This document shows positions 38,539-43,195 of a stretch of DNA of 64,000 nt, in pieces. The DNA lies in contig CACWTU010000002.1 of the NCBI GenBank assembly GCA_902763885.1, positions 300,842 to 364,841 of the forward strand. The letters are read 5' to 3'. Each line of letters opens with the position of its first letter. Within the stretch, counting starts at the first letter, position 1. A model generated the notes under the pieces. It saw only the letters and a program-made list of their open reading frames with translations, was not told the DNA's origin and searched no databases. Position numbers and translations under genes: made by a program. The DNA is from an uncultured Bacteroidales bacterium. Lineage in GTDB: Bacteria; Bacteroidota; Bacteroidia; Bacteroidales; Bacteroidaceae.

Positions 38539-38577
38539 TACCAATCATTTCAATTATAAACGGCGCAAAAGTACCCT

Positions 38578-39147
38578 TTACGCGCGTATGCGTGGGTACG
38601 CAAAGAATGATATGTGGTGAATCGTTTGCCCGGTGTGGTGAACAGCACAAAAGTATCGCATCCCTGTGTCATCGGCGATGACACAGGGATGCGATACTTT
38701 TGTGCTCTGGGCATAACCAACCTCGTAATAAGTTTCTGTCTCACCCCAAGCATAGTAGTCACCGTATTCCTCGGGCTTGGTGGCACCTACGTTAAAGGTG
38801 GCCCAATTTACACTAAGACCTAAGTCAACAAACTCATATCCGTTGTGAAAGCCATTATTACCTATAATCACATTTTCAACAGTTACAGAGCATGTTACTG
38901 ATTCATCATCACATGAAGCTGTTATTACTGCAGTTCATGCAGACACGACTATAACCACTCCTGAGGAACTTACTGTTGCAACTAATTCATTATCGGATTT
39001 CCATATTACTATAGCTTTATCAACCTCAACATTTCCACTCCAAGCTGTAGCCTTCAAAGAATACTCCTCGCCCACCGTCAATGAAAGCATCGTAGTGTCT
39101 AGAGTCACAGACGTGATTCTATTAGTTTGTGTAGTATCATTTTGCGC
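38578..39147 (-). pseudogene. Decayed C-terminal extension of the FISUMP/Big2 protein
   Basis: The frame of the intact gene (stop TAA at 39148-39150) continues in phase downstream. It encodes a Big2-like domain (TSVTLDTTMLSLTVGEEYSL, IVIWKSDNELVATVSSSG) interrupted by TGA at 38935-38937, where the domain normally has Gly. The beginning of another FISUMP domain follows (FVDLGLSVNWATFNVGAT, YAWGETETYYEVGYAQ) and is cut off by the family A palindrome A3 at 38706. Two nonsense changes and a REP truncation have therefore removed a third FISUMP module from a once longer protein. Confidence 0.8.
38644..38706. repeat. Family A REP A3, perfect 30-bp palindrome
   Basis: The arms 38644-38673 and 38677-38706 are exact complements around GGC. 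It differs from A2 at two bases in each arm (CGTTTCCC versus CGCATCCC) with matching changes on the other arm, so pairing is kept. It truncates the FISUMP remnant. Confidence 0.95.
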
Positions 39148-41139
39148 TTATTTGGAGCAGACAGGTCGTATAGAGAAACCAAAGTTTCGACCTATATCGC
39201 TATTTATAACGGATTTTTTTTCTGAATCAAATACGAGACAGTCCGGCCAACCCGGATTAAAACTTTTGCCTGTAGTGTTTGATACATAATAACCTTTCTG
39301 ACCAAATCCCACAAAATCATAATAGTGGAAGTATCCATCAGCTGGAAGAAAAATGGAGCGGTCTGTGTATCCTGTCTTATTGCTCGTGACACTATATCCT
39401 TTTATTCCATCCACTGTTGTCCATGTCCATGTACAATTGTCTACCAGTTCTTTCAATTCTTCAGGGGAAGGAATGCGCCAATTATTGCCCCAATTTGCCT
39501 GAACAACATCATCTTCGGGGTCTAGAATCTTTTTGTTGTCAACTGTTCCCCATACTGAAATAGAATTGTATTTAGTAAGTTTAGACCACCAACCATCACA
39601 CCATTTGTAGTTTTCCCATTTGTATTCAATTTTACTTTCCGTTTCTCCCCAAGCATAATAACCGCCATGATCCTCTGGTCTTATTGCTCCGACATTGCAT
39701 GTAGCCCACTTGACCGACAAACCTAAATCCACATATTCATGCGTAACATCATTATGATTCAGTACAGTAACAATACATGTTGCATATTTATCACCACAAG
39801 TTGCTTTAATAGTTGCAGTGCCAACTGTTATTGCTCTAACCAATCCCGTTGAATCTACAGTAGCAACAGGCTCATTATTTGATTGCCAAATAATAGCAGC
39901 AGTATCAACTACTTCGTTTCCATTCAATGCTATGGCCTTCAATGAATCCCAAACGCCAATTATCAATGACAGACTTGTTTTTTCAAGAGAAACTGACGTT
40001 ATTCCATTACCATTTTCATTTTGTGGCTCTATTACTGTTATTGTGCAGGTAGCGGTTTTGCCCATACATATAGCTGTGATGGTTGTAGGACCAACAGCAA
40101 TGGCGGTTACTACGCCTGTTTCACTGACAGATGCAATGGATGGATTATCCGATATCCAAGTAACTTTACGGTCTATTACTTCATTACCTTGTTTTACGGT
40201 AGCAGAAAGAGTAATTGTATTACCCATTACAATCGAATCTAAGTTGCTGTTTAAGGTAATTGAGACAGCATTTAGCCACTCTTCTGACGGGCAAACGGGG
40301 CGAACGGAAAAACCGGTGTTGCGGCTGCTGCCGCCCCCGCCCGTGCCGTGACGGCCGGAACCGAAGCTGAGGTACTGCGCGCGGACCGGGAAGTCTGTGT
40401 TGAGCGAAGAAGACCAATAGTAGCCGCTCTCTCCAGCGTAGCTCAGACTCGTATCGCCGCGATACCCGGCTGCGGGCAGGAAAATAAAGCGGTCTGTGTA
40501 ACCGGACTTGTTACTGGTTACTTTATAACCGGCTACACCATTAAACTCTGTGTTCCCTCTACGATACCATGTCCATGTGCAACTGTTATGTAGTTCACTC
40601 AGCTCTCCAAAGGTTGGCATACGCCAACTTCCGCCCCATTTGACGTGGGCAACATCATCTTCCGGGTCAAGGACGGTCTTGTTATCTATTGTACCATATG
40701 AAGTGCTGGTGTTGTATTTGGTGAGTGTGGAATATGAACCATTACACCATTTGTAATTGGACCAACCGTAGCCAGCAGAATAACCATCTTTCCAATGAGC
40801 CTGAGGACTTTCCTGGGCATAACCAACCTCGTAATAAGGTTCTGTCTCACCCCAAGCGTAGTAGTCACCGTACTCCTCCAGCTTGGTGGCGCCAACATTG
40901 AAGGTGGCCCACTTGACACTAAGTCCCAGGTCAACATATTCATAAGAAGAGATTTCTGGTGATTGAGAGACTTCAAACCAAACACTATCTATGTCTGTTA
41001 CTATATAGCGTACATTCGAACCGTCTGTCTTGCGGATGTTCATGTAATACTGGGCTTGAGTGGCCAAGGTTCCGATAGTCAGCAGGATGATTGCTGAAAG
41101 TGTGCGAAAAAGCGTAGTCTTTAAGGCTGTATGTTTCAT
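39148..41139 (-). CDS. Modular surface protein: FISUMP - Big2 - Big2 - FISUMP
   Basis: 663 residues with a signal peptide (cut near TQAQ). Residues 31-60 are a short N-module (NIRKTDGSNVRYIVTDIDSV). Residues 66-283 form the first FISUMP domain (YVDLGLSVKWATFNVGAT, YYAWGETE, WRMPTFGEL, IFLPAAGYRGD, YWSSSL, GFSVRPVC), a C-type-lectin-like fold. Two Big2 domains follow at about 292-370 and 379-460, then a second FISUMP domain (468-663) ending FSIRPVCSK. Residues 226-278 of the first domain differ from the paralogue at 42125 mostly at NNC codons, as in DGR variable regions. The start overlaps the upstream gene by ATGA. It is probably surface exposed, with a binding role inferred. Confidence 0.85.
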   Translation of the reverse strand: MKHTALKTTLFRTLSAIILLTIGTLATQAQYYMNIRKTDGSNVRYIVTDIDSVWFEVSQSPEISSYEYVDLGLSVKWATFNVGATKLEEYGDYYAWGETEPYYEVGYAQESPQAHWKDGYSAGYGWSNYKWCNGSYSTLTKYNTSTSYGTIDNKTVLDPEDDVAHVKWGGSWRMPTFGELSELHNSCTWTWYRRGNTEFNGVAGYKVTSNKSGYTDRFIFLPAAGYRGDTSLSYAGESGYYWSSSLNTDFPVRAQYLSFGSGRHGTGGGGSSRNTGFSVRPVCPSEEWLNAVSITLNSNLDSIVMGNTITLSATVKQGNEVIDRKVTWISDNPSIASVSETGVVTAIAVGPTTITAICMGKTATCTITVIEPQNENGNGITSVSLEKTSLSLIIGVWDSLKAIALNGNEVVDTAAIIWQSNNEPVATVDSTGLVRAITVGTATIKATCGDKYATCIVTVLNHNDVTHEYVDLGLSVKWATCNVGAIRPEDHGGYYAWGETESKIEYKWENYKWCDGWWSKLTKYNSISVWGTVDNKKILDPEDDVVQANWGNNWRIPSPEELKELVDNCTWTWTTVDGIKGYSVTSNKTGYTDRSIFLPADGYFHYYDFVGFGQKGYYVSNTTGKSFNPGWPDCLVFDSEKKSVINSDIGRNFGFSIRPVCSK
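40306..40464 (-). other. Candidate DGR variable region VR1
   Basis: This segment encodes AGYRGD to TGFSV in the first FISUMP domain. Compared codon by codon with VR2 (42149-42301), variable sites are nearly all NNC pairs (AGC/TAC, TAC/GGC, AAC/TAC, TTC/GGC, GTC/AAC, CGC/GGC, AGC/GGC, ACC/GAC), while codons between them (GGG, CGC, GCT GGA GAG, TGG, TCG CTC, GAC, CCG, GCG, TAC CTC, TTC GGT TCC) are mostly identical. That is the pattern made by adenine mutagenesis of AAC codons. Confidence 0.6.
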
Positions 41140-41603
41140 TTTTTCAGGATTTTTACGGTTAATGACTGGGAACTGATTATGTAAGTACCGTTTGGCAGGT
41201 CAGCAATGCTAAATGTTACATCACCGTCCTCATCGGTCTTGTATGACTGTAATAACTTTCCATCGGATGAGTTTAGCCTGACTTCTATGTCTGCTTTTGC
41301 TCCGGTTATGCTTACGGTATATGAATCAAGGGTTATGACGGCTTTAGCCGCATCATCATTTATGCTGATTACAGCATCTTCTATATCATCAAACGTAAAC
41401 TTGGAGACTGATGAGAGAGCATAGGTTAATTCCGTTTTGGTGGATTTGACTATAAGGTCACTGTCTGTGAATGACACCACCGGTTTGTCTTCAAACCCGA
41501 AACTGAACTGCTGACCATCTTTCTGATGAATTGTAAGGGTGTTCTGGGAGAATAATGGTACTGCCGCGACTACCACAAGCAATAATAGATATAGCCTTTT
41601 CAT
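41136..41603 (-). CDS. Secreted protein with T9SS type A-like C-terminal domain
   Basis: 155 residues with a signal peptide (MKRLYLLLLVVVAAVPLFSQ). The first module (TLTIHQKDGQQFSFGFEDKP, SSVSKFTFDD) is the short domain often found before FISUMP proteins. The last 70 residues (YTVSITGAKADIEVRLNSSD, DLPNGTYIISSQSLTVKILKK region) match the type A sorting domain of the type IX secretion system, including the final Lys-rich strand. It is coupled to the FISUMP/Big2 gene by a 4-base overlap. The minus-strand -7 box TATGTTTG is at 41625-41632. Confidence 0.75.
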   Translation of the reverse strand: MKRLYLLLLVVVAAVPLFSQNTLTIHQKDGQQFSFGFEDKPVVSFTDSDLIVKSTKTELTYALSSVSKFTFDDIEDAVISINDDAAKAVITLDSYTVSITGAKADIEVRLNSSDGKLLQSYKTDEDGDVTFSIADLPNGTYIISSQSLTVKILKK

Positions 41604-41691
41604 AAACTAAAAAATTTGGTCTTACAAACATACATATATTTCTCTGAATAATACATTAAGGATTAAATGAACATTTGATGCCGGCTATATG

Positions 41692-41724
41692 CATGACACA
41701 GGGAAACGATACTTTTGTGTCATG
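41692..41724. repeat. Family A REP half-element A4
   Basis: A single right arm (ATGACACAGGGAAACGATAC onward) identical to A2 up to TTTTGTG, with ends CATGACACA and TGTGTCATG that pair with each other. Confidence 0.85.
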
Positions 41725-42012
41725 GGCTGTGTGCCTTTTGGCGGATGCGGGACTGATTAAGGTTACTCAGTTGATGCGCAGCGGCTGCTCTTCCTGTAGC
41801 TCCGGAAAGCGTGCTGTGTTGTGGTTCCTGATGATGCGATATGTGCTGCCAGAGAGTTCTGTTCCCGACTTGGATGACGGTTGGTTGATGGCGGATGACA
41901 ACGCCCCTGAGTAAGATGAACGGCTGCTGGCCAGCCCACTTCTGCAGGAATGAAAGTCTGTGATAAAAACGGTGTGTCTTGGGGCGATGGCGGGTGTGCA
42001 TTTTGCCGAAAG

Positions 42013-42088
42013 CAGGTGCAGGACTGCCTGATGTTGCTGGGTGGCTTTGGCATTGCCACCCCGCCTACATCAAGCAGTCCTGCACCTG
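42013..42088. repeat. Long hairpin/cruciform downstream of VR2
   Basis: The 22-base arms 42013-42034 (CAGGTGCAGGACTGCCTGAT and GT) and 42067-42088 pair with one mismatch. Inside, GGTGGC (42040-42045) pairs with GCCACC (42055-42060). It lies 37 bases beyond the FISUMP stop codon. Confidence 0.75.
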
Positions 42089-42124
42089 AATGCTTGCCTT
42101 TTGGGCCAGTGGGGAGGACAAATC

Positions 42125-43195
42125 CTACTGACACACTGGCCGGACAGAGTAACCGTCGTTGCGGAAGCCGTAGTACGTGGTGGACACGTAGCTGGAACCG
42201 AAGCCGAGGTACCGCGCGCCGTTCGGGCCGTCAGTGTAGAGCGAACTGGACCAGTAGCCGCCGTACTCTCCAGCGCCGTAAAGACTCGTGTCGTCGCGGA
42301 ACCCGGCAGCGGGCAGGAAAATAAAGCGGTCTGTGTAACCGGACACATTACTGGTTACCTTATAACCGGCCACACCTTTAAACTCTGTGTCGCCACTATT
42401 ATACCAGGTCCATGTGCAACTGTCGCATAGTTCATCCCGCTCTGCCTTGGTGGGCAGACGCCAGCTGCCGCCCCATTTGACATGGGCTACATCATCTTCC
42501 GGGTCAAGGACGGTTTTCTTATCTACTGTACCGTATGAACTGCTGGTGTTGTATTTGGAAAATTTTATATTGTCCCATGAGTCACCACTGGTACGGAACT
42601 TGTAATTTGTCCAGGTGTAACTTGTCTTGGTTTCTGTCTCACCCCAGGCGTAATAGTCACCGTATTCCTCCGGCTTGGTGGCACCGACATTACAGGTGGC
42701 CCACTTGACACTCAGGCCTAAATCCACAAACTCATAACCATTTTCTTTACATTCTCTTGTTGTGAATGATTTTACCGTGCCACCATACACTTTTTCATTA
42801 ATGGTAATATATGCTACATAATAGTATTTGGTTGATTGCTAAAGACCACTGATTTCTTTACTGAATGATTTTGTGTTCTCTGAAATCATATCCACCACAA
42901 CCTTATTACCGTTAACCTTTATATTATCCAAGACATCAAGTGTACCATAATAGAATACAGCAACTCCTTGAACATCCTTGGCATTGGTAATGGAACAGGT
43001 TGCATTTAATGTTGCTGAACAATAGTCAATGTCCGATGCATCAGCAGTTGTCACTTCAACTTTGATGTCCTCGGTTTTTTCACCTGATGATTTATTTTCA
43101 TCACCAACTTTTTCTTCGCCTGTACAGGACACCCCAATCAATGCTACTACAGCCATTATCGGGGCCATTCTTAATAGTGAGAGTTTCATATTCAT
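42125..43195 (-). pseudogene. FISUMP lipoprotein split by an in-frame amber codon
   Basis: One frame runs from the ATG at 43193-43195 to a TAG at 42125-42127 and is broken only by a TAG at 42839-42841. The N-terminal part is a lipoprotein (lipobox IGVSCTG) with a fibronectin-III-like domain. The stop falls inside that domain between KEISGL and QSTKYYYVAYITINEKVYGG, where relatives have a charged residue. The downstream part (IN)EKVYGGTVKSF then FVDLGLSVKWATCNVGAT to YSVRPVCQ is a complete FISUMP domain containing VR2. It is either a recent nonsense mutation, a read-through site, or two separate polypeptides; the frame is otherwise intact. A -7 box TATATTTG lies at 43237-43244 (minus strand). 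Confidence 0.8.
42149..42301 (-). other. Candidate DGR variable region VR2
   Basis: This is the segment equivalent to VR1 (GFRDDT to DGYSV), one codon shorter. Its variable positions are TAC, GGC, AAC, TTC, GAC, AGC and ACC. It ends seven codons before the gene's stop, the usual DGR position, and a long hairpin follows at 42013-42088. Confidence 0.55.

Follow-up and report, generated by a model that had tools for sequence, protein, structure and literature searches.

Variable segments in two FISUMP genes

We analyzed a stretch of 64,000 nucleotides from an uncultured Bacteroidales bacterium (GCA_902763885.1, contig CACWTU010000002.1, positions 300,842 to 364,841; hereafter, the window), in which two genes for FISUMP-domain proteins each contain a segment resembling the variable region (VR) of a diversity-generating retroelement (DGR). 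In such a system, a reverse transcriptase (RT) would copy the RNA of a template repeat (TR), with random incorporation wherever the template has an adenine, and the resulting cDNA would replace the VR beside an initiation of mutagenic homing (IMH) sequence and a hairpin. The identification of the two segments, VR1 and VR2, as former variable regions of a DGR proved sound. Both segments and their genes lie on the minus strand, as follows.

39148 to 41139, minus strand: gene 1, with a signal peptide (assigned by eye), a FISUMP/Lcl_C domain containing VR1, two Big_2 domains and a second FISUMP domain
40306 to 40464, minus strand: VR1, within gene 1 and followed in frame by the Big_2 domains
42149 to 42301, minus strand: VR2, C-terminal in the gene 2 FISUMP domain
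42125 to 42790, minus strand: C-terminal part of gene 2, the open reading frame (ORF) of the VR2-bearing FISUMP domain, with profile matches under the curated cut-offs
42839 to 43195, minus strand: N-terminal part of gene 2, lipoprotein-like (by eye), ending at an in-frame TAG

The Lcl_C profile, which we take to be the present Pfam name of DUF1566, matched gene 1 above and gene 2 below its cut-off; gene 2 additionally matched Fib_succ_major below the cut-off of that profile. No solved relative was found at E 0.01. The second FISUMP domain of gene 1 does not display the VR pattern. In gene 2, the TAG at 42839-42841 separates the export signal from the FISUMP part, and the reading frame is open at this site in the three relatives inspected.

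We compared VR1 with VR2 codon by codon, together with the portions of the same two domains that lie upstream of the VRs. Among 51 aligned VR codons, the first, second and third positions differed in 19, 19 and 12 cases, compared with 10, 11 and 30 cases among 119 upstream codons. Codons altered only at the first two positions outnumbered those altered only at the third by 17 to 6 in the VRs, compared with 12 to 26 upstream (Fisher test, P = 0.0017), and the third base was C in 15 of these 17. The rate of third-base differences was equal in the two parts (12/51 and 30/119, P = 1.0). The original prediction had placed the two segments correctly, and the twelve codon pairs that it listed, together with CAG/CGG, are all present; its description of VR1 as an internal segment with Big_2 domains downstream also agrees with the gene. 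It understated the third-base differences.

The DGR cassette of a relative and its template

We searched 37 genomes of the genus, including that of the window (G000), and a set of 399 genomes of the family. VR2 as a DNA query matched 22 of the 37 genus genomes. In one of them, G019, a single 8-kb contig (G019:C52) carries a small secreted protein, a FISUMP target, the sequence TAGGATTTGTCC and a long hairpin, and behind the hairpin stand an accessory gene, a TR and an RT. The RT contains the motifs LPIGNLTSQ and YVDDF, which we take to be marks of DGR RTs, and the TR is rich in AAC. Over the VR codons, 24 of 51 template adenines but only 1 of 138 other bases differ between VR and TR of this cassette (24/53 and 3/154 when the IMH is included). 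The accessory protein (178 aa; L034, 4134-4670) had no Pfam or PHROG match at E 0.01. The window shares with this contig the target, the small upstream protein, the IMH-like sequence and a homologous hairpin; unlike the contig, neither the window nor its genome was found to contain the accessory gene, TR or RT.

Within the family, the G019 RT matched 25 of 399 genomes at E 1e-20. We examined 14 cassette loci, namely G019, 10 others of the family and three viral contigs with related RTs (35-49% identity). Paired VR/TR repeats were found in 11 of the 13 further loci, and in the 12 pairs summed, 250 of 612 template adenines and 13 of 1601 other bases differ. Outside these pairs are L140, in which no A-biased repeat was found, and L113, whose contig starts behind the VR. 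Relatives of the accessory protein are present in 11 of the 13. The order VR target, accessory gene, TR and RT, with A-directed changes in the VR, was observed in G019, L141-L149 and L151; the exceptions are L150 (no accessory match), L140 (no TR) and L113 (no VR). The window locus comprises the target part only and is accordingly not a complete cassette of the G019 type. A-biased repeat pairs also occur near other RTs, in G025 (L098 on G025:C26, 5394-6195) and at a second G019 locus (L099 on G019:C1, 7178-7552), which therefore look like separate DGRs.

We next aligned VR1 and VR2 with the G019 TR, to which homology extends over 40287-40484 and 42112-42321, respectively. VR1 differs from this TR at 32 of 48 template adenines and 42 of 129 other bases (P = 7e-5), and VR2 at 29 of 47 template adenines and 38 of 133 other bases (P = 9e-5). 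When only codon positions 1 and 2 were considered, the adenine excess persisted (P = 6e-4 for each). The excess overlies a divergence of about 30% at the non-A bases of the TR, which fits a diverged template. The wider set of VRs comprises 60 distinct rows, the G019 TR included, and covers only the loci collected for that comparison; in the column statistics, insertions shift the last columns of a few rows. The adenine-mutagenesis reading of the original prediction thus gains support from an AAC-rich template and an RT beside a homologous FISUMP target in the same genus, from the preference of VR1 and VR2 to deviate at the adenines of that template, and from the DNA and hairpin that VR2 shares behind its VR.

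Could these patterns have arisen without a retroelement, by ordinary mutation of FISUMP paralogues combined with strong selection on loop residues and shuffling between copies? The genus has a large number of FISUMP modules, variability is seen in many of those that lack an IMH as well, and the VRs also contain third-base differences. However, this explanation is hard to reconcile with the enrichment of changes at the adenine positions of a relative's actual template, with the third-base C kept in 15 of the 17 codons, or with post-VR DNA and a hairpin that are the same as in a complete cassette. We consider it very improbable.

The DNA behind VR2

Immediately behind VR2 we identified two further features.

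42116 to 42127, minus strand: IMH-like 12-mer TAGGATTTGTCC, which starts with the stop codon of the VR2 gene and is identical behind the G019 VR
42013 to 42088, minus strand: two-part DNA hairpin with a 22-bp outer stem, inner stems of 2 and 7 bp and a 9-nt loop AATGCCAAA

The hairpin starts 27 nt behind the 12-mer and folds into 31 pairs (z -8.3 compared with shuffles). Window and G019 share 79% identity (276/351 columns) over the DNA that runs from shortly before VR2 to the end of the hairpin. The match between the DNA following the VR2 stop codon and the post-VR DNA of G019, with its IMH-like sequence and covarying hairpin, is new. The original prediction had noted neither the recognition site that follows VR2 and is missing after VR1 nor the stop codon within the VR2 gene.

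To analyze the hairpin, we aligned 12 sequences of the genus, 10 from the 21 IMH-flanked VRs and two from the 38 others, in which 91.9% of the cells pair. Both sides had changed at 12 of the 31 pairs, a value as high as which was obtained in 0 of 500 shuffles, and pairing dropped to 31-50% when the partners were slid. Because the sequences were picked by eye for alignability, the covariation is valid for that subset. The 11 IMH-flanked loci left out were L006, L009, L010, L016, L018, L027, L030, L031, L082, L085 and L090; some of their hairpins have shorter or different stems, and in L027 and L082 the core is present by pattern, but the fold chose another stem.

The exact IMH-hairpin pattern was found at eight sites in four of the 399 family genomes, all of this genus (G000, one; G019, one; G014, four; G011, two). 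In GTDB r220, the hairpin core had 12 matches, seven in metagenome-assembled genomes (MAGs) of Bacteroidaceae and five in unrelated bacteria, and it follows a VR in the contigs of G011, G014 and G019. By the same fold, inverted repeats of 10-30 bp occur within 150 nt behind the cassette VRs; since stems of 7-20 bp also occur behind the cassette TRs, only the long stems behind VRs stand out.

A comparable element is known from Bordetella phage BPP-1, where an inverted repeat likewise lies right behind the VR, beyond the TR/VR homology (PMC3240598). There, hairpin and IMH were enough to target a foreign gene, and the structure of the stem counted more than its sequence (PMC3240598). The published phage stems measure 7-10 bp, with a 4-nt GRNA loop, at 4-34 bp from the VR (PMC3240598); unlike these, the hairpin of the window has 31 bp in two parts and a 9-nt loop, and stands 27 nt behind the IMH-like 12-mer. 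VR2 looks as if it has retained a whole cis landing site, judging from the sequence and the predicted structure, and the function of this site is one that we infer.

Behind VR1, neither an IMH-like sequence nor a hairpin was found, and the frame runs on into Big_2. By sequence and by predicted fold, VR2 has both elements and VR1 has neither. Of the VR-like modules in the loci examined, 21 of the 46 terminal ones but 0 of the 13 internal ones have an IMH-like sequence behind them (P = 0.002). This distribution would be expected if VR1 had never been a DGR target itself and had acquired its already diversified VR when a terminal module was duplicated or converted, and the FISUMP-Big_2 junction behind VR1 also resembles those of internal modules in G011:C4. 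However, no VR1-like terminal donor was found in the genome, where only VR1 and VR2 match. The chances of this origin of VR1 seem to us evenly balanced, and it is compatible with the explanation that we favor below.

The search for the mutator and the history of the two regions

The assembly that contains the window comprises 2.71 Mb in 27 contigs and is 90.9% complete. Two RTs, of the defense type, were found in it, on contigs C4 and C10 (L001, 883-2391; L002, 1042-2733); the best-fitting profiles are AbiP2 and UG39, and we rejected both as DGR RTs on that ground. No DGR-type RT was found in the 27 contigs, and none of their proteins matches the G019 RT at E 1e-20. A pattern left open at the template adenines matched only VR1 and VR2 in this genome. 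One TR-like 15-mer (G000:C2:263779) was rejected, because it lies inside an ORF, within a region that is 90% identical to G003 and lacks similarity to the TR. The G019 accessory protein was found in 1 of 37 genus genomes, that of G019 itself; no search for Avd itself was made in the genome of the window. Within the window, the G019 parts detected VR1 and VR2 only, and no RT, accessory gene or TR. The original prediction had seen no RT, Avd or TR in the window, which we confirmed with the G019 parts (the accessory gene instead of Avd), and had proposed a check of the rest of the genome, which yielded no DGR RT or TR in the assembly. The alternative that it raised, a mutator acting in trans or relic regions, was therefore the right one to pose.

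In the assemblies of the genus, similar targets are found more widely than the machinery. IMH-flanked VRs occur in 10 genus genomes, to which G018 would add an eleventh, and only G019 among them has a matching RT and accessory protein. The cassettes may have been lost, or they may assemble poorly in MAGs. Within the genus, the G019 RT at E 1e-20 matched only G019 itself and, distantly (31% identity), G025, and the other RT matches of the genus were rejected as RTs of this type. The match in G017 is group-II-intron-like (QGGPLSP, YADD; TIGR04416, 176 bits), and that in G015 is a short fragment. An RT-like protein of 538 aa in G018 (L036, 1108-2721; G018:C46) fits neither the G019 RT nor the group II model well (47 bits to the latter, 205 bits to phrog_1423); no DGR RT motif was found on either strand of its contig, and no A-biased repeat pair.

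We further compared VRs within genomes with respect to their third bases. Two loci of G011 on different contigs, L027 and L008, differ in their VRs at 18, 20 and 1 of 63 codons at positions 1, 2 and 3, compared with 5, 6 and 19 of 99 codons in the upstream parts (third base, P = 5e-4). Third bases are thus more alike within the VR, as predicted by rewriting from one template, and these VRs look freshly rewritten; no RT matching that of G019 was found in the G011 assembly. We compared 43 within-genome pairs, among which this one stands out most clearly; most of the others have many third-base differences, and the next clearest, L026/L087 in G014, differs at 18, 9 and 4 of 62 codons. VR1 and VR2 show no such homogenization (12/51 compared with 30/119, P = 1.0), and are therefore old or derived from different templates, as the original prediction had stated. 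Across loci, the third-base measure was higher for IMH-flanked than for other VRs (medians 0.85 and 0.50, P = 2e-5), in a sample that mixes relatives with paralogues and is thus not independent. VR1 and VR2 do not differ in this measure (14/17 and 13/16), which lends no support to the idea that VR1 is the more decayed.

These observations bear on whether VR2 is a live remote target, on which a DGR cassette in the cell, in other strains or in mobile elements acts in trans without having been assembled or binned. The intact IMH-like sequence and hairpin behind VR2 would fit such a situation, as would the rewriting pattern in G011 without a G019-type RT and the 10 genomes with IMH-flanked VRs for one matching RT. 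However, VR1 and VR2 lack homogenization, a stop codon lies between the export signal and the FISUMP part of gene 2, and no DGR RT, TR or accessory gene was found in the 27 contigs. We therefore regard a live VR2 as possible, though doubtful.

We consider it highly probable that VR1 and VR2 are orphaned DGR targets, VR1 being frozen and VR2 being either a relic that still has its landing site or a trans target of an unassembled cassette. Both would have been written in the past by a FISUMP-type DGR such as that of G019. VR2 would have kept its landing site, in a gene that carries an in-frame stop and an assembly without template or RT. VR1 would have lost its site, or would never have had one, as its FISUMP domain turned into an internal module, and would now be frozen. 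Loss of the machinery from this genome is the somewhat likelier course; its presence in an unassembled part of the genome is the less likely one, though by no means negligible.

Several points weigh against the orphaned-target explanation. The search was lossy: as a genome query, the G019 TR reported VR1 and missed VR2 in G000, although VR2 aligns well locally with G019. Completeness of the assembly is about 91%, those records of the genus whose titles were inspected are MAGs, and the analysis is based on one genome per species. Since the G019 cassette stands alone on an 8-kb contig, such a cassette could be missed. The differences of about 30% at non-A bases make the G019 TR a distant stand-in for the true template, and because the published phage hairpins are shorter, the role of the long hairpin is one that we infer. 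Finally, that the hairpin and the IMH-like sequence are both intact points to recent function.

Two further minus-strand features adjoin gene 1.

41136 to 41603, minus strand: gene for a small secreted protein of 155 aa, upstream of gene 1
38560 to 39147, minus strand: decayed continuation of gene 1, beyond the stop codon

The 155-aa protein is 62% identical to the protein immediately upstream of the G019 DGR target, and the N-terminus of gene 1 resembles that of the target itself (48% over 60 aa). The decayed continuation contains a Big_2-like stretch (38938-39147; 21.4 bits, compared with the Pfam cut-off of 22.8) terminated by a stop, and after it a truncated FISUMP domain (38731-38859), as if the locus were a shrinking array of modules. 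Neighboring genes look chromosomal, based on Pfam for five proteins and on inspection of the ORFs by eye for the rest. We rejected a viral origin of the locus, given that the VR2 protein has no close relative in the viral contigs and that the IMH-hairpin pattern is absent from them; the chromosomal-looking neighbors also speak against it. An IS200-like Y1 transposase (PF01797; 43810-44604) adjoins the VR2 gene. A cyanobacterial study described IS200/IS605 transposases close to DGR targets (PMC7517822).

Orphaned or remote DGR targets are already known. DGR target genes without RT or TR were reported in isolates of Treponema denticola, where the authors took them as leftovers of core-cassette loss (PMC4891356); these are orphan targets of the same kind in another phylum. 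DGR targets of the human microbiome include DUF1566, Fib_succ_major and Big_2 domains (PMC4159848), and likewise combine a C-terminal VR in a DUF1566/FISUMP target with adenine-directed substitutions and Big_2, some of the targets being lipoproteins. In contrast to those systems, neither RT nor TR was found in the assembly alongside the VRs of the window, and VR1 has an internal position. A 2025 review states that DGRs diversify tip pilins of Bacteroides (PMC12632263), and a large metagenome survey that sought RT and VR side by side misses remote targets by its own statement (PMC8144416). A literature search for DGR with FISUMP returned nothing, and among the matches listed for DGRs in the rumen or with tandem or internal VRs, none concerned this arrangement by its title and the opening of its abstract, which is no proof of absence. 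Our additions are the matching cassette within the genus, the cis site behind VR2 but not VR1, and the sign of rewriting in trans in a relative.

A more general arrangement is also conceivable, although we think it rather unlikely: in this genus, VR, IMH and long hairpin might act as a portable landing pad that accompanies many FISUMP genes, with a rare and perhaps mobile RT cassette acting on them in trans. Where a target gene grew by duplication of modules, only the terminal module would then keep the pad, and internal modules such as VR1 would be frozen records of former variants, while the end continued to diversify. The signature described here, consisting of the VR pattern, TAGGATTTGTCC and the covarying long hairpin, allows target genes to be found without an RT, and in the assemblies of the genus, far more genomes were found to have such targets than to have the matching cassette. 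If the trans-rewriting signature of G011 holds in reads, the reach of these mutators in rumen and hindgut bacteria would have been underestimated.

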